Assembly: GCA_963971535.1 (NCBI GenBank)
Contig: OZ020594.1
Location: 111,814,251-111,878,250, forward strand
Direction: 5' to 3'
From: Notolepis coatsorum
Lineage: Eukaryota; Chordata; Actinopteri; Aulopiformes; Paralepididae
DNA: 64,000 nt
Part shown: positions 6,001 through 55,259 of the stretch, piece by piece
Numbering within the stretch: the first letter of the stretch is position 1
Layout of the letters: the number at the start of each line of letters is the position of its first letter
Notes under the pieces: generated by a model
What the model was told of the DNA's origin: nothing
The model's input: the letters and a program-made list of their open reading frames with translations, nothing else
The model's database searches: none
Program-made: the position numbers and the translations under genes

Positions 6001-6346
6001 CAAGGCAGTCTCCTGATCTGGAGCATACACCAACAAGTCATCCAAGTAGCACAGTAAACTCAAGTAGTTCTGGTCCCCGAAGATACTGGTCATCATGCGC
6101 ATAAAGCTCCCGGGGCTATTGCAGAGGCCCTGCGGAAGGCGGTTGTATTCATACAAGCCCATAGGCGTGGTGAAGGCTGAGTACTTTCTGTCATCCTCAT
6201 GTAATGGCATGTTATAGAACCCGGAGGTCAAGTCCATTGTACTGAAGAAACAGTTGCCACCAAGCGCAGCCAGGCAATTCGCCTGGTGAGGGAGAGGATG
6301 AGCGTCCTTTAGGGTCCTCTTGTTCAGCCAACGGAAATCTGTACAC
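3034..6346 (-). pseudogene. gypsy pol fragment: reverse transcriptase, RNase H, integrase
   Basis: Recognisable blocks, in order on the minus strand: RT with DFRWLN, FFSTMDLTSGFYN, LPQGLCNSP and the catalytic YLDD; RNase H with STDASLDGIGAVLSQ and WTDNNPLTHI; integrase with an HHCC zinc finger (HDDAGHQG ... CQRCIVSK), core residues in VCIDFWSAED, HSDQGANFES and NGSVERFNR, then a C-terminal RVLLANKRERGKRK block. The reading frame breaks near 5400 (within RNase H), near 5200, near 4310 (inside the integrase core) and near 3350. All catalytic residues are still visible but no continuous protein is possible. Confidence 0.85.
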
Positions 6347-7193
6347 CAGTGGCGGCTCGCCACTAAGGGCGCAAGGGCGCCGACCCACCTGCTGGCCAGC
6401 TGCTGTTAAATCAGAGAAGAAGACAATAAAACTTTTTCGTTTTTGTGTTTTATAGCCCTATAAATAATATAAACATGTTTAAAATGAATAATATTTACTC
6501 ATTTTAAGTATGTTTGTATTTCCAATGCACAATATAACGTTATTATCTAAATAAAAAAAACATCGTTTTCATGAGCAGGAAGTGACGTTTTTTTTTATTT
6601 TTTCGTATTTCTCGCCCGGGCTAGAAGCGATAGCGCTCTGAGTGCGCGTCACAGTTTGATCGCTGTCTCCGTCACAGCCAATCAGTGCATACGGCGTTGT
6701 GCGTTGAAATATGACTATTATGTTGGAATCCGAGCGCGATTTGAAGCGGTCTAGCCAGTAGCGTCAAGAATATCTATAGCCGCATTTCGCGGAGACGCTC
6801 TCTGATTGGCCGACGCCAGTATTTTTTTCCGTGGCTGAATTTCACAGAGACGATCTCTGATTGGCCGAATCCAATTTCTAATGTTCCAATTCTAGCTTCT
6901 AGCTTCCTAGGTTGGTCTAGGTTGTTTGTCTTAGACGAGCGTGCCGTGACTGCAAGTTCTTTAGACTGTTAAGCTTAGGCACTCTTTCAAAGTTGGCTAA
7001 GGTTAGAGTTTGTCTTAGAGCATGGCGATAGAACGCCAGGTAGTTTGCAGTCTGTTCGAGCGGAAATGGACAAAGGAATGTACTTGTTGAGTGTTGTGCT
7101 AACGAGCTAAGCTAACACTTGGCTAACAAGCTATATGGCGGATTATACACGTTTATCAAGCTCTCCTGCCCTGGACGTTTCAACTAAACAGTG

Positions 7194-7295
<102 letters not shown>

Positions 7296-7567
7296 TAACG
7301 TTAACGTTTGTAAATAGTTTTTTTAGGAGCAGTACTGTTAGGCTACTGCTGTGCTGGCCATTCATGAAGCGAGACATTGCTGATTGTTTATTTATTTTAT
7401 AACACAAGACTATGACTACCAACTGCCTAGCCAGCCGTGTATCAATCTTGGATGCAATAATAACGTTACTTACCACACTGACTATGTCGATGGCTCATTG
7501 ATTTAACTACTGCAGCTCTCTCGGATTGAAAATACGTGGATTATGGCTTGTTCAATATCGTCTATGT

Positions 7568-7705
7568 TTGAATGAATGAATGAATGAGAACTTTATTAAC
7601 AGATTGCAGAATGGGTACAATACAGTACGGCTCAATACACACAATTGTTAAGGGGATGCAGACCAGAGAAAGACGTTTGTCTTGTTTACATCAGGGTCCC
7701 AGATT
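7568..7705 (-). mobile_element. LINE 3' tail, copy 2
   Basis: Tandem GAATGAAT, then AACTTTATTAACAGATTG, CAGAATGGGTACAATACAG and AAGGGGATGCAGAC, then CTTGTTTACATCAGGG. This is the same block, over about 130 bp, as 59580-59697 in opposite orientation. Only the 3' end of the LINE is present, consistent with target-primed 5' truncation. Confidence 0.6.
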
Positions 7706-8164
7706 TTCGATTCATATCGATAGTTTAATAGCTAGCCTTGGCTCGTTTAACAATATGCAAAATATGTGTACAGCCCTGTACTCATACTGAAGTTATTCTT
7801 GGTATATAATAGGTCTGATTGTGTAACGAATCGATTCCACGTCGCGCTGTGTGTGAGAGAGAGAAGGAGAGAGGGAGAGATCTGCCTGTGTTTGGAGACG
7901 GGCGAGTTTTGTTTCTAACTTTTCTATTTATATTGTGTTTCAAGTTGTGAATTAGAGTCTAGACTATACTTTATTTGACTGGTTGTGTGTTGTTGTAGTA
8001 ACAGCTGAGCGACTCGTTCATAAGAGCCGATTCATTGCCGTGAGCGTGAGTCGAATCGCTCACGTCTTGCCATGAGTCTTGCGTGGTACAGTACTGTACT
8101 GTACATGTTTGCAAAATATTTGGTATAGCGCCCCTAGTGGCGAAGTACCCACCGGCCGCCACTG

Positions 8165-9310
8165 CTGTACACACACGGAGATCGCCATTCTTTTTCCACA
8201 CAAGTACCAGAGGAGACGCGTATTCACTGGTGGACTTTCGGATGATCTCCTTCTCCTCCATCTCACTCAGTACCTGGCGTAATATCTGATACTGGCCGGG
8301 GGGCACTCGCCTGAATGGGAGCCGGAATGGTCTGTGGTCAGAGAGGTGAATACGAAGTCCTTCGCTTTTCCACAGTCAAGATGGTGGCGTGAGAAGATGT
8401 CTTCCTACCGCACAATCAGGTCAGCCATCTTCTGTTTCCAGCTCTCTGATACATCACAAGACTGGACGTCAAGACTGCTCAACCCAACTGACTCAAGTTT
8501 GTCATCAGTGGAACGTACCTCGGCAGAGGCGGGCATCTCCACTTGAGTGCAACTGACCAGGGGGACCTTTGGAGGGTCAGCAACATCCATGTCCTCAAGC
8601 GCCATGCAGGGGAAGACATCAGCCAGCTTTGCATTACGCCTCACCAACACGGGCCTGTCAGAAGTATTGATGAGCTTCAGTGGGACCCATCTGTCTCCCC
8701 ACAATAGAGTAACAATCCTTGCTACCAAAACTCCCCTCGGGGCCGAACGAGCAGATGTGGGCTCTGTCATTACGGTGCTGCCCGGAGATACAGCAGTGTC
8801 TTTAGGCAGCTTTCCCCATACGAGATATTCACGGCCAGGTTCAAGGCAAACAGCTGAATTGCACCTCACAGTGCCAACTTTGTCCGGCACGTCCTGACCT
8901 CTCCACGGACTCAGACCAGAGAGCATAGATGTTCAGATTCTTGATATTTGGCAGTGCAGGGGCCGGATACAGTTTTCCAGTAGGAATCGCACAGCTTAGA
9001 CTGACGAAGGACATGCTTAATAACATTAGTCCCCAGTATCAACTCATCATGCTGTCCCTGAACAACGAGCGCGGGGACCGACATCTTACAGCCATACACT
9101 TCCATCTCCACATCGAAGGCAGACTTTGGCTTGACACGGCGTCCACCACATCCAACAAGGACCACGTTCACATTGATCTGGTTGTGCTCAGTTATCACTC
9201 CAGCCTCCCTCAGCTTCATCTCTGCTACCTCGCTGATGCTACAAGCCATGGACCCGCTGTCTAGCATGCCACCCAGCGTTGTTGTACCACCCACACCCAC
9301 AGGTGTATAA
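8165..9310 (-). pseudogene. gypsy pol fragment: protease and start of reverse transcriptase
   Basis: The minus strand encodes an aspartic protease block with the catalytic GMLDSGSMACS and a VVLVGCGGRRVKPKS segment. A PR-RT linker follows (REYLVWGKLPKD, then WGDRWVPLK), then the first RT motifs (PPGQYQILRQVL, KEIIRKSTSEYASPLV). A stop lies at about 8403 and a frameshift near 8335. The coding sequence stops at the hAT insertion (8164) and resumes at 6346. Confidence 0.85.
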
Positions 9311-18317: not shown

Positions 18318-20441
18318 TGATAAGTGCCCACGCTAGGTCTTAGGTCAGATTGATAACTTCATAACTCATTGGTGTGCTCATCTTGACATCAAGCAGCGTC
18401 CTGCGAAGTGGTTGACATGCAGAACCCAATGAGTCTACAAAATGTTGTTGTTACACCTGACCAACAGACCCAGCGAATGCACCGTTCCGACCCCACCAGT
18501 CATTGACCATGGTCAAGTGATTGAAGTTGCGGAATCTTTTATTTTATTTGCACTGGGATGGACACTCTTTATTCAGATGATGTCCATTTCCCTTATCCGT
18601 CACACGTAGTATCACTGTAGCTTTACTTGATAATGTGTGGATAAAGGCCCACTCCTATAGTTTTACATCATAAATCAGGAACATTACGGGACCGTGTTGT
18701 TGCCGACTGGTTAAAGACACACTTCTAAAGTTTTTACATCATAAATCATGAACATCACGAAGCAATGGGTAAAGTTACAATGCAAAAACATTTCAATGCT
18801 TACCCGTCTGGTCAGAAGAATGGATACAAAAAGATATATTATAAAAAGCTGTTTTATTTAGAAAAAGCAAGTTACAGAAGAGACTTCATTGGAAATGTCC
18901 AACTCAGTTAAAAGAAGTATAAAACAAAAACATCAAAGGCCTAACACGGCTTGTGCCTGGTGTCTGCAAGCAAAATCTTCAAATCTGGCCTCTTGAAGGA
19001 AGAACAGTCATTTTTATATCGATCTGGCATCACATTGCTATTGGCCCAAAAACAGTGGTGTCACTGTGATGTCATTTCACTAGCCAACCAACGTACACTA
19101 CATAGTAAGGATGGACTCCTCCCCTTCTAGTCATTACATCTACTGGAGAAGTAACAGATTACCTTGTGTTGGAAAATACCTATCTGTTACTAGCAGAGGC
19201 CAGAGGCCCCAAGGTTGTTTTTACATTCCTTAGTGGCCAAACAGTATTGAAGTGAAAGCAATTCACACTTCTAGCATGAGTATATAGTACATAGCCCAAC
19301 ACATACTACAGATATATACAGATACACATACATCCCTCTCTGCGCCGCCCCTATCTCCCTGTCTCCGGCTGTCCCTGAGCAACGACCGGAGTGTTAAATG
19401 TCCCTTGACTAAGACGGGGAGGACGTGACCCTCTTTGCGCCGCCCCTGTGCCTCAAATAGATTGCTATCAGCTCTATCTTTAATCTTTCAAAATGTTCAG
19501 TTGCTATCGCTATTAGCTCTATCTTTAATTTTTCAAAATGTACAGTTGCTATTGCATGCACTCATCTGTGTTCCACTACACACATGAGTGCATGCTTACC
19601 AACTGTCCGTCTGCAACACTACTATCACCAACATCTAAGAAGGGAGATCCCCCCTTGAATGGCCCTTCTAAGGTTTCTCTCCTCCACACTGCCTGTGGAG
19701 CTTTTTTTCCCCTATTGTTAGGTTTTAGTGAGTTTTTCCTTACCTTCGCGTGGGGTATGTCTGGGAGTGCTTGCATTCTTTCATTTATTTGCATCCATCT
19801 AAAAATGTTTGCACCTTATGGTGTTCTTGTTCTGTTCTTGACTTATTGTTATGTTTTCTTCTTGACTTGTTTAAAGAAGATCTGTACGGCCCATGGGGAC
19901 ATTAACGTGTGTTGTTGGGCCCTATAAATAAATTTGATTTGATTTGATTTGACATGTATAATACAGTACATATATATATAGTATACAGTGTACACATAAA
20001 TATGCACATACTTGTACCTATCATTGTCTACTCTACGCAGGGTGTGACAACCTGCTGTGGAAAGCACCCTGCTCAGAGATGTTTCCAAGGCCATCACCTC
20101 CCGGCATTCCGAAGGGGCCCCCTTCGTTCTCACTCACCCCAACTCAAGGGGATGCAGACGAGGGAGACTGCTGGCTATATAGTACATGGTCCTAAGGTGT
20201 ATAAAGAATATACAGCTTATATAAGATACAAGTGTATACAAGTTATACAAGTGTGCACCCTTCATAGAGCTGTCTCCTCTGCCACGGATCTTCACATATA
20301 GACACCTACAGTAACATATGCCTAGATCTAAAACAGATATATACCATAAACATATGCTTAAACCTTTTACATTCCATAATTGACAGAGAGAACAGGATGT
20401 CATTATTAACTAGTGTCACTAGTTGGCTGTGACACTTTACA
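18318..20441 (-). repeat. 3' LTR of the gag-only element (with LINE insertion)
   Basis: The same 1.5-kb sequence as 26310-27813, starting TGATAAGTGCCC and ending CACTTTACA, but longer by about 620 bp because of the insertion at 19334-19951. Small differences include a 3-bp indel near 18582. On the minus strand a TATA-like ACTATATAGCC lies at about 20172-20182. Confidence 0.9.
19334..19951 (+). mobile_element. L2-like LINE 3' end inserted in the LTR, TSD ACAT
   Basis: This 618-bp segment is absent from the other LTR, so both junctions are exact: ACAT at 19330-19333 and 19952-19955. It contains the L2-type 3' UTR blocks AAGGTTTCTCTCCTCCACA and GAGTTTTTCCTTACC and ends with AATAAATTTGATTTGATTTG, a (TTGAT)n tail. 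Confidence 0.85.
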
Positions 20442-26309: not shown

Positions 26310-27813
26310 TGATAAGTGCCCACGCTAGGTCTTAGGTCAGATTGATAACTTCATAACTCATTGGTGTGCTCATCTTGACATCAAGCAGCGTCCTGCGAAG
26401 TGGTTGACATGCAGAACCCAATGAGTCTACAAAATGTTGTTGTTACACCTGACCGACAGACCCAGCGAATGCACCGTTCCGACCCCACCAGTCATTGACC
26501 ATGGTCAAGTGATTGAAGTTGCGGAATCTTTTATTTTATTTGCACTGGGATGGACACTCTTTATTCAGATGATTCAGTCCATTTCCCTTATCCGTCACAC
26601 GTAGTATCACTGTAGCTTTACTTGATAATGTGTGGATAAAGGCCCACTCCTATAGTTTTACATCATAAATCAGGAATATTACGGGACCGTGTTGTTGCCG
26701 ACTGGTTAAAGACACACTTCTAAAGTTTTTACATCATAAATCATGAACATCACGAAGCAATGGGTAAAGTTACAATGCAAAAACATTTCAATGCTTACCC
26801 GTCTGGTCAGAAGAATGGATACAAAAAGATATATTATAAAAAGCTGTTTTATTTAGAAAAAGCAAGTTACAGAAGAGACTTCATTGGAAATGTCCAACTC
26901 AGTTAAAAGAAGTATAAAACAAAAACATCAAAGGCCTAACACGGCTTGTGCCTGGTGTCTGCAAGCAAAATCTTCAAATCTGGCCTCTTGAAGGAAGAAC
27001 AGTCATTTTTATATCGATCTGGCATCACATTGCTATTGGCCCAAAAACAGTGGTGTCACTGTGATGTCATTTCACTAGCCAACCAACGTACACTACATAT
27101 TAAGGATGGACTCCTCCCCTTCTAGTCATTACATCTACTGGAGAAGTAACAGATTACCTTGTGTTGGAAAATACCTATCTGTTACTAGCAGAGGCCAGAG
27201 GCCCCAAGGTTGTTTTTACATTCCTTAGTGGCCAAACAGTATTGAAGTGAAAGCAATTCACACTTCTAGCATGAGTATATAGTACATAGCCCAACACATA
27301 CTACAGATATATACAGATACACATACATGTATAATACAGTACATATTATATAGTATACAGTGTACACATATATATGCACATACTTGTACCTATCATTGTC
27401 TACTCTACGCAGGGTGTGACAACCTGCTGTGGAAAGCACCCTGCTCAGAGATGTTTCCAAGGCCATCACCTCCCGGCATTCCGAAGGGGCCCCCTTCGTT
27501 CTCACTCACCCCAACTCAAGGGGATGCAGACGAGGGAGACTGCTGGCTATATAGTACATGGTCCTAAGGTGTATAAAGAATATACAGCTTATATAAGATA
27601 CAAGTGTATACAAGTTATACAAGTGTGCACCCGTCATAGAGCTGTCTCCTCTGCCACGGATCTTCACATATAGACACCTACAGTAACATATGCCTAGATC
27701 TAAAACAGATATATACCATAAACATATGCTTAAACCTTTTACATTCCATAATTGACAGAGAGAACAGGATGTCATTATTAACTAGTGTCACTAGTTGGCT
27801 GTGACACTTTACA
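26310..27813 (-). repeat. 5' LTR of the gag-only element
   Basis: 1,504 bp, TG...CA, with no LINE insertion and therefore the ancestral length. A TATA-like ACTATATAGCC on the minus strand at about 27544-27554 is the likely promoter. Confidence 0.9.
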
Positions 27814-30660: not shown

Positions 30661-32273
30661 GGCCCTCATTCATCAACGTGTGCGTAGAACATGTTCTATT
30701 TCCACACGTAAGCACAGAATTTAGAATGAGTGTACGCACAGGAAAATCGGGATTCACCACACGTGCGTACGCAGGTTCTACGCACACCTGTCATGATGAA
30801 TATGACTTTGATCCTACGTTTGAGCTCGTGCACTGTTTTAAGTATTTGCATACCAGAACCGCCCCGATTAACCATATACGGTAATGGTATACCCCCATGA
30901 AATGTGGAAAAATGGACTAAGCCGAGGGAAGCGTGTTATGAGAACGGTGATGTCGGATATGATATCTATTAACCATTGCTGCCTGGGCAGCGCAAACACT
31001 AATAAAGACCGCGCTGGAATATGACTGCCTTTTCCCGTGTTGTTTGATTAATACCCAGGGATTAAAGTTCTCCTCAATTTTATTCCAAATCGCGATGGAT
31101 CTCCCGTCAATTTTCTACCTGCTGCATATGATTTCTAGAGGCATACTACAATCTATTTTGATGTCAGTATTGGGTAGCCTATATAAACAATAATACGAGA
31201 GCATATACAAGAACAATGAATCTCACTGCATGTATGATGTAGCCTGCCTTTCAATACATGAACTTGAATTCCATCATGTTTGTGTGCGGGACTCACAAGG
31301 CTGTTGTCACAATGGGTGGTACCGGTACAGTAATAATAACAGTCCACACAATATCACGATGGACCATGCCATAGCCTATGTTCTATTAGGACATGATCTG
31401 TGACGACAAATGTTCTAGAATGTTTGATTAAGATATCATACTCTGACAGCATGCCTATGATCAACAAAAACGCGAACTTGAATCCCATCATATACATAGT
31501 CTGTCCACTATCTGGTGTCATTGCAATGCGTTTTCTATTCTTTCTTATGCAGTAAAAAGGGGGAAGAACACTATATCGTGGGTGTTCATATGACTCTGCT
31601 TACAGCTTCGAAACTCCACTTGTTTCGTTTAACGTAAAGCCTTTTAAATATAATCAAAACGTTCCCGTGTTTCTGCGGTCTGTGCGCAAAATAATAACGA
31701 GTTGAGATACGCGGAGCGCAGTCAGTCAGTAGCCTACACCCCGTATATTCCGATAACGCTATATAAACCATGCTGCATTCATTCTGAGAGAAAGATCTAT
31801 TATTCCAAATGCTATTTATAGGGTTTTGACCATAATTACACTACTGTTGCTATTTTACAATGAACTATAATGAATTACGGTTCATACAGCCGTAATTCAT
31901 TATAGTTCATTGTAAAATAGCAACAGTAGTGTAATTATGGTCAAAACCCTATAAATAGCATTTGGAATAATAGATCTTTCTCTCAGAATGAATGCAGCAT
32001 GGTTTATATAGCGTTATCGGAATATACGGGGTGTAGGCTACTGACTGACTGCGCTCCGCCAGTGTTGAAACTAATGCACAGAAGCTCATTTCCTTGTTGT
32101 AATAATATATTCTACCACTGGGCGTCAGCTAAGTGTGCTCAGAGCTGTGCGTAGACATAAGCACAAAGTCAAGTTCAAGTTGAAATTGATGAATCCCACT
32201 CTTTGCTTAGAAATTATCGTACGCACAGGGTAAGCACAAATCTGTGCGTAAGACACGTTGATGAATGAGGGCC
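30661..32273. mobile_element. Harbinger-like element with 3-bp TSD
   Basis: The left end is GGCCCTCATTCATCAACGTG and the right end its exact complement. CAG flanks both sides (30658-30660, 32274-32276). A 3-bp TSD fits the PIF/Harbinger group, although its usual target is TWA. Near-repeats of GTGCGTA-type sequence lie inside both ends. No transposase ORF is seen. Confidence 0.65.
31711..32059. repeat. Perfect 170-bp inverted repeat with 9-nt spacer
   Basis: The left arm 31711-31880 and right arm 31890-32059 are exact complements by manual alignment, separated by TTCATACAG. The arms start GCGGAGCGCAGTCAGTCAG and end GAATTACGG. Confidence 0.9.
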
Positions 32274-33703: not shown

Positions 33704-35083
33704 TTACCACCCTCTGCCAGTGCTGTAACACTGGCAGTCGACTGCCAGAAGAAAGAGGAAAGGGGACAGTAGGCAGCCCTGTCTGACTCCTGTCTCTACT
33801 GTAAAGCTGTCTGTGAGCTGGCCGTTGTGTATTACTCTGCAGGATGATTGTAGGTACAGGTGTTGGATGATGGTTATGAACTTCGTTGGGATACCGTAAT
33901 GTGCCATGAGTTTCCATATAGTGTCTCTGTCTAGACTGTCGAATGCTTTGTGGAAGTCGATGAATGTGAGGTGGAGAGATGTGTTCCATTCCAGGGTCTG
34001 TTCTATGATAATGCGGAGGGTGGCAGTGTGATCTGTACATGATCTGTCCCGTCGGAAACCTGCTTGTTCTTCTCGGAATTCTTTGTCCACTTCTTTGGAC
34101 AGTCTTTCCAGGATGATCCTGCTCAAAATCTTCCCTGGCACAGATGTGAGCATGATGCCCCTGTAGTTGTTACAGTCCTTCAGGTTGCCTTTTTTGGGGA
34201 GCTTCACCAGGTATCCCTCTGCCCAGTCGCTTGGCACCTTTTCTTCATCCCAGATCTGTCCAAAGAGTTTGTGGAGTAGTGTTGTTGCCATTTCTGGGTC
34301 TGCTTTTATGGCCTCTGGGGGTATTCCGTCAGGTCCTCGTGCTTTATTGTTTTTCAGTTTTTGAATGGTCTTTTTTATTTCTTGTTTATTGCCTTTTTTG
34401 GGGAGCTTCACCAGGTATCCCTCTGCCCAGTCGCTTGGCACCTTTTCTTCATCCCAGATCTGTCCAAAGAGTTTGTGGAGTAGTGTTGTTGCCATTTCTG
34501 GGTCTGCTTTTATGGCCTCTGGGGGTATTCCGTCAGGTCCTCGTGCTTTATTGTTTTTCAGTTTTTGAATGGTCTTTTTTATTTCTTGTTTATTGGGCTT
34601 GTTGGTGTTGACCGGTAGGGAGTGTACCGCTGGATGGATGTTGGCTAGCGCTGTCGGTTTGGGTCTGTTCAGTATGTCTCTGAAATGTTCTGCCCATCTC
34701 TTCAGCTGAGCCTCTTGCTTTGTGAGTGTTTTTCCTTCTTTGTCTAATATTGGTCTGTCCGGAGTTTTGCGTTTATTAGCCAGTTTCCTTGTGATGTCGT
34801 AGAGTTCCTTCATGTTGTGTTGAGCTGCTGCTTCTTCTGCTTGAGTTGCCAGGTTGTTGATGAATTGTTTTTTGTCGTTCTTGATGCTCCTTTTTACCCG
34901 CTTGTCTGCCGTGGTGTAGTCTTGTTGTGCTTTTACTTTTGCAGCTCTTGTGCGACTATTGTTGAGAGTGTCTTTGGCTTGTTTGCGAGTCTGAATTTTC
35001 TGTAGTGTTTCTCCTGTCATCCACTCCTTGTGGTGCCTTGTCTTCCTCCCACATGTGTCCTCACTAAGGCTGAGCCCGAACAT
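33704..35083 (-). pseudogene. LINE reverse transcriptase fragment (RTE-like) with exact internal duplication
   Basis: The 459-codon minus-strand frame has a basic linker (KEWMTGETLQKIQTRKQAKD) followed by RT blocks: ARGPDGIPPEAIKADPE, WAEGYLVKLPKKGN, EEQAGFRRDRSCTDHTATL, FIDFHKAFDSLDRDT and GVRQGCLLSPFLFLLAVD. It stops before the catalytic YADD motif, where similarity ends at about 33735. A block of 68 codons (34187-34390 and 34391-34594) is present twice in tandem without any difference I can see. The duplication and truncation make it non-functional. The clade assignment is tentative. Confidence 0.75.
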
Positions 35084-46377: not shown

Positions 46378-46396
46378 GAGGGGAAACCCTTGCGAG
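46378..46396 (-). mobile_element. Right-hand (3') piece of the SINE split by the gypsy element
   Basis: Minus-strand CTCGCAAGGGTTTCCCCTCC continues the SINE sequence at 55101-55259 across the gypsy insertion; the CGAG duplication is shared. Confidence 0.5.
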
Positions 46397-46598
46397 TGTA
46401 ACAGGTTAATATGTCCCTCTTGTGAATTTCGCCAAAACACCCTTTTTTCATTGTTTTGTTTATTATTATTATTTTATTATCAAAAGTCTTTTGTTTTGAA
46501 ACATCGTCACTTCCTGCCGAAGTGACGTATTTCCCCTCGCGTCTCTCATTTCTGAGCGTGCTTCCCTCTCGCGCCAGTTTCTCTGGAATTGTTAAGAG

Positions 46599-46828
46599 GT
46601 AAGGACTGCTCTGTGGTTCTAGACATATCTTTGGGTTAAAAGAGCATTATTGTGGTGTAAATGTATGGATAAGTTGCTGGGCAATGAACCAGATTATATA
46701 CATTAACTATCTATGTTGAAGAGTAACATTTGTGCACTTTCTGTGGAGTTATTTAGAAGTGACGATCTTTTCTGTGTAACACATTGAGTAGGCTTCAACC
46801 CTGACGCTGTTGCATGTCTTCCCATTAG
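46599..46828 (+). other. Intron-like segment in the 5' LTR (230 bp)
   Basis: It begins GTAAGGACTG after TTGTTAAGAG and ends TCTTCCCATTAG before AATCTAAGAA. The same 230 bp are present in the 3' LTR (54346-54575). The segment is missing, exactly at these boundaries, from the second copy of the flanks at 47090-47194. Confidence 0.8.
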
Positions 46829-47089
46829 AATCTAAGAACCAAGGCGCCATCTTGTGGCCAAAAAGGATAAGACAAGACATTAATCCCAACAGGTAATGGG
46901 TCCATCTTACTAATGGTTTTGTTTATTATTTTAATGTATTTGTTTAATAGGCAATGAGTCAATCTTATTATTGGCATATTGTATTATTTTGTATCTGTTT
47001 TAACAGATGGATGAGTGACCCATATTGTATTATTTTTGGTATTGAGTTGTATTTACTTCATGTGCTATTTCAATGTGAATTAAAATGGG

Positions 47090-47194
47090 AGTTTCTCTGG
47101 AATTGTTAAGAGAATCTAAGAACCAAGGCGCCATCTTGTGGCCAAAAAGGATAAGACAAGACATTAATCCCTGTGTGTATTTGGGTTTTGACAG
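47090..47194 (+). repeat. Exact copy of the LTR flanks with the intron-like segment removed
   Basis: 105 bp = 23 bp (as 46576-46598) joined directly to 82 bp (as 54576-54657 in the 3' LTR), with no mismatch seen. The junction reads TTGTTAAGAG|AATCTAAGAA. The identical arrangement is at 54913-55017. Confidence 0.9.
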
Positions 47195-47278
47195 GGTGAA
47201 TAAACAACCTGAGATCCAGTCCTGCCTGATTATTGACAGTACACCAGAACACAACGCAAGCTAAACCATCGGTTACAT

Positions 47279-47296
47279 TGGTGCCGTCGACCTTCG
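47279..47296 (+). other. Putative primer-binding site
   Basis: TGGTGCCGTCGACC starts one base after the 5' LTR. TGG fits pairing with a tRNA CCA end; the tRNA was not identified. Confidence 0.5.
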
Positions 47297-47572
47297 GATT
47301 CATCTGCCATCGATGTCGTCTCGATCGCCGAAGGAAGCTGAAGATCGCCTTCGTTTCAAGTTGGTCACTCTTGGCCGTGTGGGGCATTTTGAATAAGGTT
47401 TAAAAAAAAAAAAAAAAAAAAAAAGAGAAAAGGCTGAAAAAAAAAGGAGAATAATTACTTTAAAGTGTCAAATAGGAACATTGGATTATTGGATATTGTG
47501 TGACTATATATATATGTACTTATGTACGTATGATTTTTATTTTTGTATAGTTCTTTCAATTTTTCAATTGGC

Positions 47573-49159
47573 ATGGAACCAGCAGCTAACTCAGAAGGGG
47601 CTGGGGTCTCTGAAGGAGAGAGTTTATCTGGGGTGGGCTTTGGGAGAGGTTGGTTTTTGGGTGATGAAGGCCAAACGCCTAGGGTGGGTGGGTTGCAAAC
47701 CCCACGGTTTTGTTCCACTGGTAACCGGGTCCCCCGGTATGAATTGGCAAGCCCACAAACAGCTTCTCATGTAGATGAAGGCCAAACGCCTAGGGCGGGT
47801 GGGTTGCAAACCCCACGGTTTTGTTCCACTGGTGGCCAGGTCCCCCGGTATGAATTACCAAGCCCACAAACAGCTTCTCACGTAGAGTTGAGTGCTCTCA
47901 TCTCAGAGTTGGCCAGTCAGATTGGTCAGTCGATTGCGACCCAGTTACAGGGTGACAGGGGTGTTAATAGGTCCATGTCAGCAGAGAGCCCTAAATCGGA
48001 GCAGAGAGCCCCCGAGTTGAATTTGTCAGGTGTAAAGCTCGTCATGCAGTCCGAAGTTAAGGAGAAACCAATTTTCAGGGGCGATGGCAGTGATAAATAC
48101 TCCGTTCGTGAGTGGGTGGAAGTAATGGGGGTGTATCTTATAAAGAAAAACACACCAAAACACCAACAGTCACAAGAGATACTGTCTAAGCTAATGGGGG
48201 GGGGGGCGAAAGATGTAGTGAGAATTACTCTACGACACAACCCCACACTCGACCCCATTAAGACTCCCGACCTGATCTTTGACATTCTGAAGCAGCACTT
48301 CGGTGAGCTATCCTACTCATCCATGCCCATGGCTGACTTTTATAATATCAAGCCACTGCAGCGGGAGGGAGTGATGGAGTACTGGGTGAGACTGAACAAT
48401 GCCATTGATATTGCAGACAAGTGTCTAAAGAGGCAGGGGCGTAGTGTGGAGGATCCAGGACGTGAAGTGTCGATGATGTTCATCAAGTACTGTCCAGACC
48501 CGGTCCTTTTTAACAGGCTCAGCATCAGAGCGGCTGAAGAATGGTCGACCAGCGAGGTTCAGGAGCGCATCGACAGCCACCAGCGTGAGCTCAGGTCATC
48601 GCAAGGCCGTTCTCAAGCCCCGCAGATACATGTACTGAGCCACACCCAGACGGCCATACCACAGCACATGGAGAGACCACCGCCAGTGCATGTCAGCACA
48701 GCTTCACATCTCTCAGCTGTCTCAACTGCGGCAGCATACGATGTGGCATCGGTCTCAGCACTAACCCCACAGCTTTCGCCCACAGCAGCCCAGTTCATTC
48801 CGGCTCCAACAGCCGCTCTCACTCCACAACTTCCCCAGGTGCTAATCGCCCCTCACCCGGTACCAGTGGCCACTGCTCAACCTGGTTTTGAGCCAGGTCA
48901 TCGCCAGCCGGCTCCGGGCCTCACTGCAGAGGCCGACGTAGATGGCATGCGTGCTCTATTCAGCCTCTTGGGTCGCATGATGACACAGCAGAATGTGCAG
49001 GTGGCAGCCCATGCACCGGCACCGGCCCCGCCAAGACAGTTTGCTTCGGGTCCTTTTCAGACGAGGAACTGCCGGGTCTGCGGTGATACCGGCCACTCCA
49101 CGCTCATGCACTGCAGGAGAGAGAATCTGTGCCTCTCATGCTTCACTCCAGGTCATTGA
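47573..49159 (+). CDS. gag of the young gypsy element
   Basis: The likely start is the ATG at 47573 (MEPAANSEG); an upstream in-frame ATG at 47543 is also possible. The N-terminus contains two copies of a 37-residue unit (DEGQTPR(V/A)GGLQTPRF..., 111 bp apart). A capsid-like helical region follows (EWVEVMGVYLIKKN, GAKDVVRITLRHNP, SSMPMADFYNIKPLQREGVM, YCPDPVLFNRLS), then a Pro/Ala/Gln-rich linker. The C-terminus has a knuckle CRVCGDTGHSTLMHC and the start of a second (CLSCFTPGH). The stop TGA falls inside that second knuckle: the codons after it would supply the missing Cys (KRDC). The pol frame overlaps by about 70 bp in the -1 frame. Confidence 0.85.
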   Translation: MEPAANSEGAGVSEGESLSGVGFGRGWFLGDEGQTPRVGGLQTPRFCSTGNRVPRYELASPQTASHVDEGQTPRAGGLQTPRFCSTGGQVPRYELPSPQTASHVELSALISELASQIGQSIATQLQGDRGVNRSMSAESPKSEQRAPELNLSGVKLVMQSEVKEKPIFRGDGSDKYSVREWVEVMGVYLIKKNTPKHQQSQEILSKLMGGGAKDVVRITLRHNPTLDPIKTPDLIFDILKQHFGELSYSSMPMADFYNIKPLQREGVMEYWVRLNNAIDIADKCLKRQGRSVEDPGREVSMMFIKYCPDPVLFNRLSIRAAEEWSTSEVQERIDSHQRELRSSQGRSQAPQIHVLSHTQTAIPQHMERPPPVHVSTASHLSAVSTAAAYDVASVSALTPQLSPTAAQFIPAPTAALTPQLPQVLIAPHPVPVATAQPGFEPGHRQPAPGLTAEADVDGMRALFSLLGRMMTQQNVQVAAHAPAPAPPRQFASGPFQTRNCRVCGDTGHSTLMHCRRENLCLSCFTPGH

Positions 49160-52100
49160 AAGAGAGACTGCAACAGGCGTGGACAGAGGCAGTCAGGTCA
49201 GGGCGACCCCAGTCGGGATCAGCCTTCGGGAAACTAGAACACCCACACTCAGAGAGGGGCAGTGTGGGGGGTGGACAGCAGACCCTCAGTGAAGATGAGT
49301 CAAGTCTCGAGCTTCTCTATGTTAACACCTGTTCAGCCATGCCAGAATGCGAAGTCGTGGTTCAAAGATCAGCAGAGGTGCCAGCTTTCAGTGAATTGTT
49401 CTACACTCAGGTCACAGTGAATGACAGAGTTGGACTGAAGGGCATGATTGATTCAGGATCCATGGCTTGCACCCTGAATGAGGAGGCAGAATGTAAGCTC
49501 AGAGAAGCTGGGGCCCTAGTGGGAGAACCTCAGTCAGCAGGAAGGATTATGCTGGTTGGCTGTGGAGGAAAACAGACCCACCCCAAATACATATATGACT
49601 TAACACTGACCATCTACGGAGTGAAATGCTTCGTCCCTGTTCTAGTGGTCCCAGGTCAGCGCGATGACCTCATCATCGGATCAAACGTTCTCAAGCACCT
49701 AATGAGTGTCATGAAAGGTAGTGACACCTACTGGAAACTCATATCTGCGGCAGGCAAGCATTCGCCGCCTGATCATGAGCAGTTCTTGGATATGATGTCA
49801 TGTACCACCAGATGGAGGGGAGACGAGGCCCCCGACAGGATCGGCACTGTGAAGTTACCCCATGCCATCACGCTGCTCCCTCAACGCGAATACCTGGTGT
49901 GGGGCAGGCTGCCCAGCAATGTGCCAGTGTCTCCAGGAAGCACGGTCATCGTGGAGCCTTGCACCTCTAAGGCCAGACCGAGAGACGTGCTTGTTGGGCG
50001 GGTTATCACGCCAATGTGGGGAGATCGGTGGGTGCCTGTGAAGATGACCAACCTCTCACCCAGACCAATCACTCTGAAACGCAACTCCAAGGTCGCAGAT
50101 GTCTCACCTTGCCTTGCGGTGGAAGACCTAGACATCCAGCAGGGCTCCTGCACGATGGAGGCAGGAAGGCCAGGACAGGGTATCAGGCCGGCTGCCACAG
50201 ATACCGACCTCAGGGACAGGCTCTCCACCCTCGGATTGAGTGCCCTCGACATCGACTCGTGCCACGCCAGCTTACATTCTAAGAAGGAGCTTGTTGAGCT
50301 TGTCGAAGACTACCAGGATATATTCTCCAGGCACTCACTTGACTGCGGCAAAGCAGAGGGGTTTGTACATCGCATCCGCCTGACAGATGACCGGCCGTTC
50401 CGCATGCCATACAGGAGAGTGCCCCCTGCCCACTATGAACATCTCCGGCAGGTGCTCACAGGGATGGAGGAGATGGACATCATCCGCAAATCCATCAGCG
50501 AATATGAATCTCCCCTCGTCATGGTCTGGAAGAAGGATGGTGGGCTGAGGATTTGTACAGATTTCAGATGGCTGAATGCTCGGACTCTGAAGGATGCCCA
50601 TCCGCTTCCTCACCAAGCCGACTGTCTGGCAGCTCTCGGAGGCAATGCCTTCTTCAGCACAATGGACCTAACCTCCGGGTTTTACAACGTCCCCATGTGC
50701 GAGGAAGACAAAAAGTACACTGCCTTCATGACACCGATTGGCCTGTACGAATACAACAGAATGCCACAGGGACTCTGCAACAGTCCAGCTTCCTTTATGC
50801 GGATGATGTTGGATATCTTTGGCAGTCTCAACTTCACCAGTTTGCTCTGCTACCTGGATGACCTCCTTGTATTTGGCCCCACCGAAGAGGAAGCCCTTAG
50901 CAGGCTGCGAGTGGTCTTCCAGAAGCTGAGGGGCAGTAATCTCAAGCTGAGTCCGAAGAAATGTCATCTTCTGCGGGAGTCAGTCAAGTTCCTTGGTCAC
51001 GTAATCGACCGGAGTGGTGTTGCTGTGGACCCAACAAAGGTGGATGTGATTTCTAACATGCCAAGGGAGGCCGTAATGGAGGAGGATGGCTGCACTCCCT
51101 CCGTGAAGAGGCTTAGGTCCTTCTTGGGCATGGTATTTTTCTACCAGAGCTTCATCCCTGGATGCTCCGCCATCGCCAAGCCTCTGTTTGCCCTGACAGG
51201 GGGCCAGAAGAGGAAGGGCCGTGGTGGAAGGAGTGCCGGCATGTTCAGGAAGTTGACCGCAGCAGACTGGAGTCCTGCATGTGAGGAAGCCTTTCATAGG
51301 CTCAAGAGGGAGCTCCTCAGCTGTGCTGTGCTGGCTCATCCAGACTTTTCGAGGCCCTTCATCTTGTCTGTCGATGCATCTCTGGACGGACTAGGGGCAG
51401 TCTTGTCACAGCTACCCGCTGGAGAGGATAAGGCACGCCCCATCGCCTTTGCCAGCAAAAGCCTCAGCAAGTCACAGCAGAGATATCCCGCCTATCGTCT
51501 TGAATTCTTGGCTTTGAAGTGGAGCGTTACGGAGAAGTTCAGTCACTGGCTGAAAGGGCACGGCTTCACGGTGTGGACTGACAACAACCCACTCACCCAC
51601 ATACTGACGAAGCCCAAGCTTGACGCTTATGAACAGCGATGGGTGGACAAGTTGTCGGCCTACAACTTCGACTTGAAATACATCCCAGGTCCAAAGAATG
51701 TTGTTGCAGACGCACTCAGCCGTGACCCCTTCACTTCTCCCATCAGCAGGCGTCTCATTCAGGAACCCTACAGTAGCTTGGTGCATGAAGCAGAGGGTGA
51801 AGAAGCTGGCAGAGTGCAGGATGCTTTCAGGCTTAGCATCCAGCATGTTCAAGTGGTCCAGGGATCTGAGTCCGCACCGGACATGGCTGGTTCCTGCGGC
51901 TCCTCTGAAGTAAGGGCTGCCCTGCTGCATCACAGTGACTGGACGGCTACTGCAGAGAACAGGGCTCCTTGCCTCGTTCACCAGGTACAGCAGCTGCAAC
52001 CTGCTGGTCAAGATACCTTGCCTTCATTCACCTTACGTGAGCTGGAGGATCACCAGCTTCAAGATTCTGCCATCGCCGGTGTGCTGCCATTCGTTGTCCG

Positions 52101-52757
52101 CAAGCGACGTCCTTCCAGGCGGGAGAGAAATGGTATAGATGCAAGATCATTGGCTGTGCTGAAACATTGGGAGAAGCTCAAGGTCAGAGACAGTGTCTTG
52201 TACAGGGAGACAAGAGACCCAGTAAGCAAGATAAAGAGGCTTCAGTTGGTGCTGCCGGCAAGTCTGATGGACAAGGCGTTGGAGGGAGTGCATGATTTGG
52301 CAGGACACCAAGGTCGGGCCAGAACCCTCCATCTGGCAAGGCAACGTTTCTTCTGGCCTAACATGGAGAGGGATGTGAAGGAGTACGTTCGGTGCTGTGA
52401 GAGGTGTGTGCTTGCTAAGACTCCAGAACCTGCAGCGCGAGCCCCGTTGGAGAGCATAAAGACCTCAGCTCCCATGGAACTCGTCTGCATCGACTTCTGG
52501 TCAGCGGAAGACAAGAACAAGAACTCTGTTGACGTGCTTGTGATAACTGATCACTTCACGAAAATGGCACATGCCTTCCCATGCAGGAACCAGACGGCCA
52601 AACAGATTGCCAGGAAGCTGTGGGACGGTGTTTTCTGTACCTACGCGTTCCCTGAGCGCATTCACTCAGACCAGGGTGCCAACTTTGAGAGTGAACTGGT
52701 GTCCGAGCTGCTGCAGTTGTCTGGTGTGGCCAAGTCTCATACCACGCCTATCACCCC
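49087..52757 (+). CDS. pol of the young gypsy: protease, RT, RNase H, integrase (frameshifted near the end)
   Basis: The frame is open from 49087 and is -1 relative to gag; the first ATG is at 49129. Protease: GMIDSGSMACTL (Asp codon at 49450) and VGCGGKQ. RT: CTDFRWLN, FFSTMDLTSGFYN, MPQGLCNSP, catalytic YLDD at 50851-50862. RNase H: SVDASLDGLGAVLSQ, WTDNNPLTHI. Integrase: HHCC finger HDLAGHQG ... CERCVLAK, core CIDFWSAED and HSDQGANFES. The frame is then lost at about 52747, where one base appears missing; this frame terminates at 52863 with unrelated residues. The third catalytic residue (Glu) is therefore in another frame. Element-encoded replication proteins act in cytoplasmic particles and, for integrase, in the nucleus. 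Confidence 0.9.
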
Positions 52758-53840
52758 ATGGGCAACGGGGGCACAGAGTGGTTCAATCGCACCCTGGGAA
52801 ATATGTTGCGAGCACTCCCTCTCAGAGCCAAGCAAGAATGGCCTCAACAGATCCAGACGCTGACCTTTGCCTACAACGCGACCGTCCATGAGACCACTGG
52901 CTATGCGCCGTTCCACCTGATGTTTGGGCGTGTGCCGAGGCTTTCGGTGGACGTTGTATTCAGGTCTGCCCTGCATGATCCCGTTGTGGTGGATTTTAGC
53001 AGCTACTCTAGGACCCTCCAGACTTACCTGTCTGAGGCTGCCAGAATCGCTCAACAGCACACCGCCAAAGAGCAAGCGCACCAGGCTGGTCAGTACAATA
53101 AGAAGGTCAAGGGCGTCAGTCTACAAGTTGGGGATCGTGTGCTGCTGGCCAACAAGGGAGAACGGGGCAAGAGGAAGCTAGCTGATAAGTGGGAGCCTGT
53201 GGTGTACACTGTTGTCGAGAAAAACCCCAAGCTTCATATCTACAAAATCTGTGATGTCTCGGGCCGGCAGAAGGTCGTCCACAGGAACCTGCTGTTGGAT
53301 GTCAGTTTCCTCCCTGTTCGGGATCGACTGGAGGATCAGTATTCAGACATCTCATCCGATGCTGGTGATCTCAGTGGCTTGGACGACGAGTCTTCTAGGG
53401 AGCGGACATCATCGTGGGTCCTGTCTGACTCAGACCGAAATGAGGATGGAAGCACAGTGGCAGATGTCGTTGACTCGCCTCCCTCTGATCACGTGGATGA
53501 CGCACTGACTGACACAGCCTCCACTCTGGCCAGTTGTCCACTTGACTCTAAAGAGACACAGACTGTCCCTGTTGTCGACTCGGACATGCCACAGACCTCT
53601 GAACACAGACGTGACAGCCCTCAGCCCGACCTATCTCAAACCTTTAGCAGCCGACATGACAGACCACTCTCAGGGTTGCCCGAGCATGATTCTGTCCAAG
53701 TTCCGATTGCGGGTGGGGTAGTCACAAGGGCGGGGAGGATGGTCAAGCCAGTCAATAGGCTCATAGAGAACATGGTTCAGAAACCTGTTAATTGGGGTCT
53801 GTTGCCGCCTCGCAAGGCATGGTGTGGCATAAAGCTTTAG
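52758..53840 (+). CDS. Integrase C-terminal part, displaced by a frameshift
   Basis: It continues the integrase core after the lost base, starting MGNGG and then TEWFNRTLGNM, which contains the catalytic Glu (codon 52776-52778). The C-terminal domain has RVLLANKGERGKRKLADKW and KVVHRNLLLD blocks, as in the older copy. A long Ser/Asp-rich tail follows, ending VTRAGRMVKPVNRLIENM and a stop at 53840. The older copy has the same tail (FGRLIKPVSRLIQTM), so it belongs to the element. No envelope-like protein follows. Confidence 0.9.
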   Translation: MGNGGTEWFNRTLGNMLRALPLRAKQEWPQQIQTLTFAYNATVHETTGYAPFHLMFGRVPRLSVDVVFRSALHDPVVVDFSSYSRTLQTYLSEAARIAQQHTAKEQAHQAGQYNKKVKGVSLQVGDRVLLANKGERGKRKLADKWEPVVYTVVEKNPKLHIYKICDVSGRQKVVHRNLLLDVSFLPVRDRLEDQYSDISSDAGDLSGLDDESSRERTSSWVLSDSDRNEDGSTVADVVDSPPSDHVDDALTDTASTLASCPLDSKETQTVPVVDSDMPQTSEHRRDSPQPDLSQTFSSRHDRPLSGLPEHDSVQVPIAGGVVTRAGRMVKPVNRLIENMVQKPVNWGLLPPRKAWCGIKL

Positions 53841-54127
53841 AGTCACTTCATACACATATTTATAAATGGGACCGATAGGACGCTGTCGCATATGAGTGCC
53901 TGGGGATCGGGTGTAATGGGGTGTAGACTGCACCTCTATGTTCTTGAAGGGTTGGGGGTTTGGCCAACCTGTAACGCCTTTTAATCTGTTTTACGGATAG
54001 TTTTTTTTTCAACTGAACTCAGAGATTAGATCTTTGTGTTGACTGATCCAGAGGGGTAGAATTGAGCGGTGTCTTATGCGCGTCCTTAGTGTTGAAGTGC
54101 AGCTTTGGTGCTAGGTGATTTTGGGGA

Positions 54128-54143
54128 AATTCAGGGGGGTGAA
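54128..54143 (+). other. Polypurine tract of the young gypsy
   Basis: AAATTCAGGGGGGTGAA immediately precedes the 3' LTR start (54144). Confidence 0.7.
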
Positions 54144-55100
54144 TGTAACAGGTTAATATGTCCCTCTTGTGAATTTCGCCAAAACACCCTTTTTTCATTG
54201 TTTTGTTTATTATTATTATTTTATTATCAAAAGTCTTTTGTTTTGAAACATCGTCACTTCCTGCCGAAGTGACGTATTTCCCCTCGCGTCTCTCATTTCT
54301 GAGCGTGCTTCCCTCTCGCGCCAGTTTCTCTGGAATTGTTAAGAGGTAAGGACTGCTCTGTGGTTCTAGACATATCTTTGGGTTAAAAGAGCATTATTGT
54401 GGTGTAAATGTATGGATAAGTTGCTGGGCAATGAACCAGATTATATACATTAACTATCTATGTTGAAGAGTAACATTTGTGCACTTTCTGTGGAGTTATT
54501 TAGAAGTGACGATCTTTTCTGTGTAACACATTGAGTAGGCTTCAACCCTGACGCTGTTGCATGTCTTCCCATTAGAATCTAAGAACCAAGGCGCCATCTT
54601 GTGGCCAAAAAGGATAAGACAAGACATTAATCCCTGTGTGTATTTGGGTTTTGACAGGTAAAGATTGAATCTTATCAGTGGTTTTGTTTATTATTTTAAT
54701 GTATCTGGTTAACAGGTAATGGGTCCATCTTACTAATGGTTTTGTTTATTATTTTAATGTATTTGTTTAATAGGCAATGAGTCAATCTTATTATTGGCAT
54801 ATTGTATTATTTTGTATCTGTTTTAACAGATGGATGAGTGACCCATATTGTATTATTTTTGGTATTGAGTTGTATTTACTTCATGTGCTATTTCAATGTG
54901 AATTAAAATGGGAGTTTCTCTGGAATTGTTAAGAGAATCTAAGAACCAAGGCGCCATCTTGTGGCCAAAAAGGATAAGACAAGACATTAATCCCTGTGTG
55001 TATTTGGGTTTTGACAGGGTGAATAAACAACCTGAGATCCAGTCCCGCCTGATTATTGACAGTACACCAGAACACAACGCAAGCTAAACCATCGGTTACA
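54144..55100 (+). repeat. 3' LTR (957 bp)
   Basis: Contains the intron-like segment (54346-54575), the flanks (23 bp 54323-54345; 82 bp 54576-54657) and the intron-less copy (54913-55017). Between 54658 and 54887 lie about four 56-58-bp units. The first begins GTAAAGATTG right after TTTTGACAG, and the units end in AACAG or AATAG, so each looks like a small GT...AG segment. The 76 bp missing in the 5' LTR are 54635-54710. Confidence 0.95.
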
Positions 55101-55259
55101 CGAGCACGGGGAGAACATGCAAACTCCACACAGAAAGGCCCAGGAGATACCCCACCTGGGTACCTGGCAACGCGGCAACCTGGTCCCCAAGTGGGAATCG
55201 AACCCAGGACCTTCTAGCTGTGAGGCGGCAGTGTTAACCACTACACCACCGTGCCGCCC
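55101..55259 (-). mobile_element. tRNA-derived SINE head, interrupted by the gypsy element
   Basis: From 55259 leftward the minus strand begins GGGCGGCACGGTGGTGTAGT with an A-box-like TGGTGTAGTGGTTAACACTG and a B-box GGTTCGATTCCC, and continues GTGGAGTTTGCATGTTCTCC. The gypsy element sits inside it; the remainder is at 46378-46396. Confidence 0.7.

Follow-up and report, generated by a model that had tools for sequence, protein, structure and literature searches.

Terminal repeats of a fish Ty3/gypsy retrotransposon appear to carry introns together with a recurrently rewritten, pre-spliced copy of their own exons

Splicing and reverse transcription meet in several described systems, four of which we cite here. 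Foamy viruses possess a major splice donor (PMC7828637), and a functional intron lies in the repeat (R) and unique 5′ (U5) regions of the long terminal repeat (LTR) of simian immunodeficiency virus (SIV) and human immunodeficiency virus type 2 (HIV-2) (PMC1766366). In HIV-1, reverse transcription can use as its template fully spliced RNA in which the primer-binding site and R are retained (PMC1868081), while dinoflagellate retrogenes carry relics of the dinoflagellate spliced leader (DinoSL) (PMC12014239). Here, we describe a young Ty3/gypsy LTR retrotransposon at positions 46397-55100 of a 64-kb stretch of the Notolepis coatsorum genome (64,000 nucleotides of contig OZ020594.1, hereafter the window; the features of the element lie on the plus strand). 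We consider it very probable that the transcribed segment of its LTRs has three exons and two introns and that a joined copy of the exons, located within each LTR, is rewritten repeatedly from leader-spliced RNA through the landing of strong-stop DNA.

The element resembles fish Ty3/gypsy elements in its gene order, its LTR ends and its 4-bp target duplication. The splice donor of foamy viruses is located in the R region of the LTR and the acceptors outside the LTR, and we know of no spliced LTR copy in these viruses. As in SIV and HIV-2, an intron would precede the primer-binding site and fall within the part of the LTR that is transcribed, here as read at the sequence level (PMC1766366). Unlike those viruses, the element has apparently two such introns and additionally holds the spliced product in its DNA, whereas the available part of the SIV/HIV-2 report mentions no pre-spliced LTR copy (PMC1766366). 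The HIV-1 introns lie downstream of the primer-binding site and leave the LTR unchanged, whereas those of the element lie within the LTR, such that the strong-stop DNA itself would be spliced (PMC1868081). The DinoSL relics are alike in that a product of RNA processing is repeatedly written into DNA as a record, but they are trans-spliced leaders on host genes, whereas the element would record cis-splicing of its own LTR (PMC12014239). A pre-spliced LTR copy that stays in step with its own LTR was not described in the literature that we searched, a search that many subscription papers fell outside of.

The joined copy is defined most clearly in the 3′ LTR (54144-55100, 957 bp), where the arrangement is complete. 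An earlier note on this DNA had claimed that blocks of 23 and 82 nucleotides (nt), set 230 bp apart by a segment running from GT to AG, recur joined at the GT/AG boundaries, and we confirmed this in both LTRs. Exon 1 (54323-54345, 23 nt; 46576-46598 in the 5′ LTR) and 85 identical nt at 54574-54658 recur joined at 54913-55017 (105 nt; 47090-47194 in the 5′ LTR), a pre-spliced copy of exon 1 and exon 2 that we propose as the landing pad of strong-stop DNA. The segment lacking from the copy is intron 1 (54346-54575, 230 nt; 46599-46828 in the 5′ LTR), with a donor AG/GTAAGG, an acceptor CCCATTAG/A, and a CTGAC whose A lies 24 nt upstream of the intron end; exon 2 follows at 54576-54657 (82 nt). 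In the 5′ LTR, exon 2 is shortened to 46829-46887, in agreement with the earlier statement that this block is partly deleted there: 59 nt are left after a 76-bp deletion. The join has an ambiguity of 2 nt (AG), and one of the possible placements is exactly GT/AG.

The boundaries of the copy coincide with favorable RNA processing signals. When every deletion of 31 bp or more within the source segment is considered (46360 in all), 418 permit some GT..AG placement, and just 3 of the 46360 reach a combined donor and acceptor score equal to or better than the observed one, by a rough scoring with weight matrices built from textbook frequencies. The intron 1 donor is the best donor of the 3′ LTR and is equaled or exceeded at 7.8e-5 of window positions, whereas the acceptor scores less well, its value being reached at 0.7% of window positions. 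The first base of the copy corresponds to the A of CCAGTTT at 54323, a perfect match to the initiator consensus (17 such matches occur in the 957-bp LTR), and its end falls at the second-best donor of the LTR, CAG/GTAAAG at 54658. Taken by their sequence, the edges and the join look like RNA boundaries: the left edge resembles a start site, the join a donor spliced to an acceptor, and the right edge another donor. Signs of a processed insertion of the long interspersed nuclear element type were absent, with neither a target duplication nor poly(A) around 54913-55017, and U5 follows the copy directly.

We searched the genome assembly of the species itself (3.42 Gb) for further copies. The 3′ LTR gave 44 matches (40 scored among 958 candidates), and a pattern search for the joined copy gave 76 sites. 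A second block that retains the 230 bp, which the earlier note had named as a finding that would speak against it, had 0 matches to an exact pattern in the genome, versus these 76 joined-copy sites. Parsing yielded 60 LTR records in 48 insertions, told apart by 120 upstream bases (many 3′ LTRs being merged thereby), and both exon copies were complete in 54 LTRs from 44 insertions; five incomplete records (L033, L035, L050, L059 and L087) and an exon-skipped one (L034) were left out of the counts.

The joined copy proved to be in step with the exons of its own LTR. Across the 44 insertions (of two LTRs in one insertion, the closer was used; for LTRs without the acceptor AG, the AG that follows), the joined copy differed from its own exons, once spliced, at 1.20 positions on average, versus 5.24 for those of other insertions, and 0 of 20000 permutations were as low. 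When 25 elements were tested by their first-listed LTR, the averages were 1.40 versus 5.41 differences, again with 0 of 20000 permutations as good; here L002, L033 and L035 were omitted as unparsed and L034 was kept out of the permutations. The LTRs fall into the exon-1 types GGAA, CTTG, CTGG and a divergent CTCG, and the type of the copy was that of its own LTR in 43 of the 44 insertions, the odd one being L093, whose partner LTR L094 agrees. The exon-2 tail type agreed in 45 of the 54 LTRs.

These data bear on an alternative account of the window, in which spliced RNA was captured once in the distant past and inherited as a fixed, fossil part of the LTR. Such a capture accounts for the exact join as seen in the window alone. 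If it were true, copy 1 (the split exons) and copy 2 (the joined copy) should diverge independently, yet they differ by 1.20 within an insertion, less than the 4.29 by which copy 1 differs between insertions; moreover, the joins track the state of the acceptor, and intronless and exon-skipped LTRs occur in several exon types (see below). We therefore strongly disfavor an ancient one-time capture and regard it as highly improbable. These same-genome copies give strong support to the core inference of the earlier note, namely reverse transcription of spliced element RNA into the LTR. The note treated this as one event; the copies, which tend to be in step with their own exons and shift with the splice site, suggest recurrence.

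The position of the join followed the splice acceptor. In LTRs that read CATTAC, where the first acceptor AG is lost, the join lies 8 nt downstream, after the next AG, in 21 of 21 cases, whereas it lies at the usual position in all 32 of the LTRs that read CATTAG. The 8 nt are missing from the joined copy of the CATTAC LTRs yet present in their copy 1, and splicing, rather than DNA conversion, would therefore explain their removal. This observation bears on a second alternative, in which one ancient capture was followed by gene conversion or slippage between direct repeats that homogenized the exon copies. Direct repeats within an LTR can convert, and matching exon types would result. However, conversion would carry the AATCTAAG of exon 2 into copy 2, whereas the CATTAC LTRs lack it there and keep it in copy 1, and the adjacent 58-bp tandem units show no conversion: units 1 and 2 within an LTR differ by 11.6, whereas unit 1 differs by 1.5 between elements, and general homogenization of repeats is therefore not the cause. 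Nor does conversion yield exon skipping, retention of intron 2 in a copy, or exact intron loss across exon types. We accordingly judge this explanation very unlikely.

Other joins that splicing could produce were also found in the genome. Exon 1 joined straight to GGTGAATAAAC, with exon 2 skipped, occurs at four exact sites that have the spacing of two elements; the two skipped sites that were read have different exon-1 types. The exon-skipped joined copy of L034 lies within an intron-bearing LTR, while L111 is an exon-skipped short LTR without introns. Since exon 1 is joined there to GGTGAATAAAC, the start of exon 3 can be placed, and exon 3 with the end of R and U5 spans 55018-55100 (47195-47277 in the 5′ LTR), with AATAAA at 55022-55027. 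Intron 2 (54658-55017, 360 nt; donor CAG/GTAAAG, acceptor TTTTGACAG/GGTG), whose ends we take from the intronless and exon-skipped LTRs, houses the 58-bp units and the pre-spliced copy. The predicted exons measure 23, 82 and 83 nt, the last reaching to the LTR end, and both introns lie upstream of the primer-binding site.

Intronless LTRs were obtained with a pattern of U3 (the unique 3′ region) and exon 1 followed by AA, which had 16 matches, ten of which were opened. L101-L109 have LTRs of 333-365 bp from which both introns and the joined copy are gone, and they belong to three exon types (CTTG, CTGG and shifted-join CTGG); L112, read separately, is intronless and of a fourth type, the GGAA of the window element. 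L110 comes from a diverged family, and its join is putative. A search with the L110 LTR (40 of 1167 candidates scored) revealed this sister family to contain intron-bearing LTRs of the same layout, with pieces that run through U3 and exon 1, a gap, exon 2, and then joined exon 1, exon 2 and U5, the 23-nt exon 1 being the overlap; intronless LTRs occur in both families. One sister-family LTR, partly read, has a copy that is minus intron 1 but includes the intron-2 stretch, followed by another joined copy, which is the outcome that would be expected if strong-stop DNA of a partly spliced RNA had landed at the start of the pre-spliced copy. Boundaries, concerted change, the join shift, skipped joins, intron-2 retention and exact intron loss are all observed in the DNA itself.

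The intronless LTRs invite the reverse polarity, in which LTRs without introns came first and intron 1 entered the first copy by insertion. Their occurrence in both families speaks for such a gain, and an insertion could bring the 2-bp AG duplication at the join. The intronless LTRs match several intron-bearing subfamilies, however, the shifted-join one included, so that the intron would have to have been gained repeatedly at one position or recombination to have been extensive. Moreover, the intron showed no terminal inverted repeats, and the shifted join tracks the acceptor, as splicing predicts. We regard intron gain as exceedingly improbable.

A further alternative retains the repeated reverse transcription of spliced RNA but has the copy arise from non-homologous jumps of the strong-stop end, rather than at a landing pad. 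Consistent with such jumping, a few bases at the left edge of the copy, before AGTTTC, are variable (gg, g, ga, c, ag, gggg and others), although variation of this kind is also to be expected at a strand-transfer point and would fit untemplated or cap-derived bases there. Repeated jumps should hit different places, whereas the edge comes after AATTAAAAT or a near-match in the parsed LTRs and in the one sister-family LTR that was read; the 76 pattern sites cannot be counted for edge position, since the pattern requires the edge sequence AATTAAAAT. We thus consider jumps without a landing pad unlikely.

Rewriting of the copy through a landing pad would proceed as follows. The RNA would start at exon 1 of the 5′ LTR and be spliced to exon 1/exon 2/exon 3-U5. 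Because splicing precedes the primer-binding site, the minus-strand strong-stop DNA made from this RNA would already be spliced and would carry exon 1/exon 2/exon 3-U5. The 3′ LTR would offer the same contiguous spliced sequence just upstream of AATAAA, where the strong-stop DNA could anneal, and synthesis would then extend in the upstream direction, copying in turn intron 2, exon 2, intron 1, exon 1 and U3. Both introns would persist in the new LTRs, and each such cycle would overwrite the ready-spliced copy with the spliced exons of the template. An intronless LTR would arise where the first exon 1 served as the landing site of the strong-stop DNA, or where the 3′ LTR had itself been spliced. 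From the DNA we infer the start site, splicing and poly(A) use, that the copy acts as a landing pad, and that the 3′ LTR escapes splicing. It is probable that the terminal repeat of the element is spliced and that its introns survive replication by means of a pre-spliced DNA landing pad rewritten from spliced RNA in each such cycle, in which case its LTRs would constitute a heritable record of which splice sites were chosen, which exons were skipped and which introns were retained.

Several points weigh against this landing-pad reading. Concerning the match between the copies, just 13 of the 44 insertions show zero differences, and the copy 1 closest to the joined copy is (jointly) its own in just 33 of the 44; exon-2 tails disagree in 9 of the 54 LTRs, in both LTRs for L096/L097 and L028/L038. 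In the element at C8:203603370/203611408 (L002 and L069, missed by the parser in the 25-element and 44-insertion tests), the exon-1 types of copy 1 and copy 2 differ in both LTRs, copy 1 being of the CTTG type with a 4-nt insertion at the donor (GTACAG) and copy 2 of the GGAA type. These mismatched elements show that the copy match is not absolute; the mismatches in L028/L038, L096/L097 and L002/L069 would fit a transfer between RNAs of two different elements. A comparison of U5 variants with copy 2 gave no clear pattern. Concerning the join, the 21 CATTAC LTRs are not independent because the acceptor mutation was probably one event common to the subfamily. Furthermore, a tree built from U3 and intron 1 together with a portion of intron 2 is tangled, with the CATTAC LTRs not forming one clade, and independent events were therefore not counted from it. 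L083, the sole exception among the 54 LTRs, has CATTAA although its join is unshifted; upstream of exon 1 this LTR does not match U3, and the change possibly arose after insertion. The CATTAC copies also carry an extra AG or AGAG at the join of exon 2 and exon 3, beyond what splicing alone would give, shared within subgroups of the subfamily (e.g., L007 and L010). Additionally, the 3′ LTR would normally have to escape splicing, and the sample favors LTRs that bear the copy because most loci came from full-length LTR similarity or from a pattern that requires it.

The window element is a recent insertion. Its 5′ LTR (46397-47277, 881 bp) differs from the 3′ LTR by 1 substitution over the aligned part and by the 76-bp deletion, which is private to the 5′ LTR, lies after 46887 and takes the end of exon 2 and the intron 2 donor; we call the insertion young because of this near-identity. 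The LTRs are direct repeats with the ends TGTAAC...GTTACA, flanked by CGAG target-site duplications at 46393-46396 (left) and 55101-55104 (right). U3, from the start of the 3′ LTR to the proposed transcription start (54144-54322), lacks TATAAA and TATATA and has a TGACGT at -53 and an ACTTCC at -67 relative to that start. The putative primer-binding site TGGTGCCGT... (47279-47301) appears to resemble the 3′ end of the histidine transfer RNA (tRNA), and a putative polypurine tract CAGGGGGGTGAA (54132-54143) stands just before the 3′ LTR. A gag open reading frame (ORF) of 538 amino acids (47543-49159), with named relatives from teleosts (Salarias, Danio and Austrofundulus), is followed by a pol ORF (49129-52863) in the order protease-like, reverse transcriptase (RT), RNase H and integrase (translation read in three pieces; the protease match scores under the curated cut-off). 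A third ORF of 360 amino acids (52758-53840) had no Pfam match that would give it an identity, that of an envelope included. The named relatives of RT and gag come mostly from fishes, the majority of matches being unnamed. RT-based and exon-2 pattern scans of viral contigs gave no relatives, and neither did an exon-2 pattern scan of a genome collection. An Rfam scan and a tRNA scan of the 64-kb window found nothing.

The exons together with U5 contain 0 ATG in 188 nt versus 3.45 expected (P 0.01), while intron 1 has 5 and the part of intron 2 upstream of the copy has 10, neither of which differs from its own shuffles. An ATG-free set of exons and U5 set against ATG-bearing introns may be why leader splicing pays. 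The 58-bp units (54658-54829) noted earlier do exist, as three copies in the second intron, the second 81% and the third 60% like the first, and are not spliced copies. They bear a weak likeness to the start of U3, which 4-5 of 1000 shuffles equaled over the first 100 bp and 39-49 of 1000 over the first 60 bp. We rejected a reading in which the units belong to a single ancestral intron whose acceptor has been lost, in favor of an acceptor at the end of the pre-spliced copy. Exon 2 and the copy each contain a CCATCTTG (54594-54605 and 54954-54965), doubled by the spliced copy, which we take to be YY1-like and which, on the minus strand, is presumably one mismatch from a CTCF-like core.

Among the joined-copy sites of the genome, some lie only ~2.2-2.3 kb apart (C29:99662496/99664699, C6:178917604/178919910 and C44:49396527/49398742) and may represent a short non-autonomous derivative with the same type of LTR. 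Elsewhere, three LTR sites occur in a row, as in two elements sharing their middle LTR (C13:65213073/65220922/65225927 and C6:185653709/185661056/185667057).

Within the window, an inverted duplication with a C2H2 zinc-finger ORF (44909-46386/62181-64000 and 55268-56212/60712-61972; 84-100% alike by stretch) surrounds the element, which occupies one of its arms. The partner arm is without the element and offers no clean empty site, so the CGAG target duplication was not confirmed there. A second LTR-like pair lies at 18318-20441 and 26310-27813 (~99.4% identical, the left copy ~618 bp longer), and the long ORF between its members had no Pfam match. A decayed gypsy copy on the minus strand, at ~3360-8401, has ~66-70% DNA identity to the pol of the element. 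The window further holds a palindrome at 31711-32059, with two fully complementary 170-bp arms and 9 bp between them, and a 204-bp exact tandem duplication at 34185-34592, within a minus-strand RT-bearing ORF.

An intron in R-U5 is expected to be lost when spliced RNA is the template and strong-stop DNA lands in the usual way. The elements described here have both lost their introns, as the several intronless types attest, and kept them, and the pre-spliced copy would provide a concrete reason for the latter. If the landing-pad reading is true, splicing is tied to the first strand transfer of reverse transcription in these elements, and transfer between different parent RNAs is visible as mismatched copies. 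RNA processing would then be recorded in the DNA of the LTRs across many insertions, and the record would extend to a splice site that mutated naturally and gave the outcome predicted for it.

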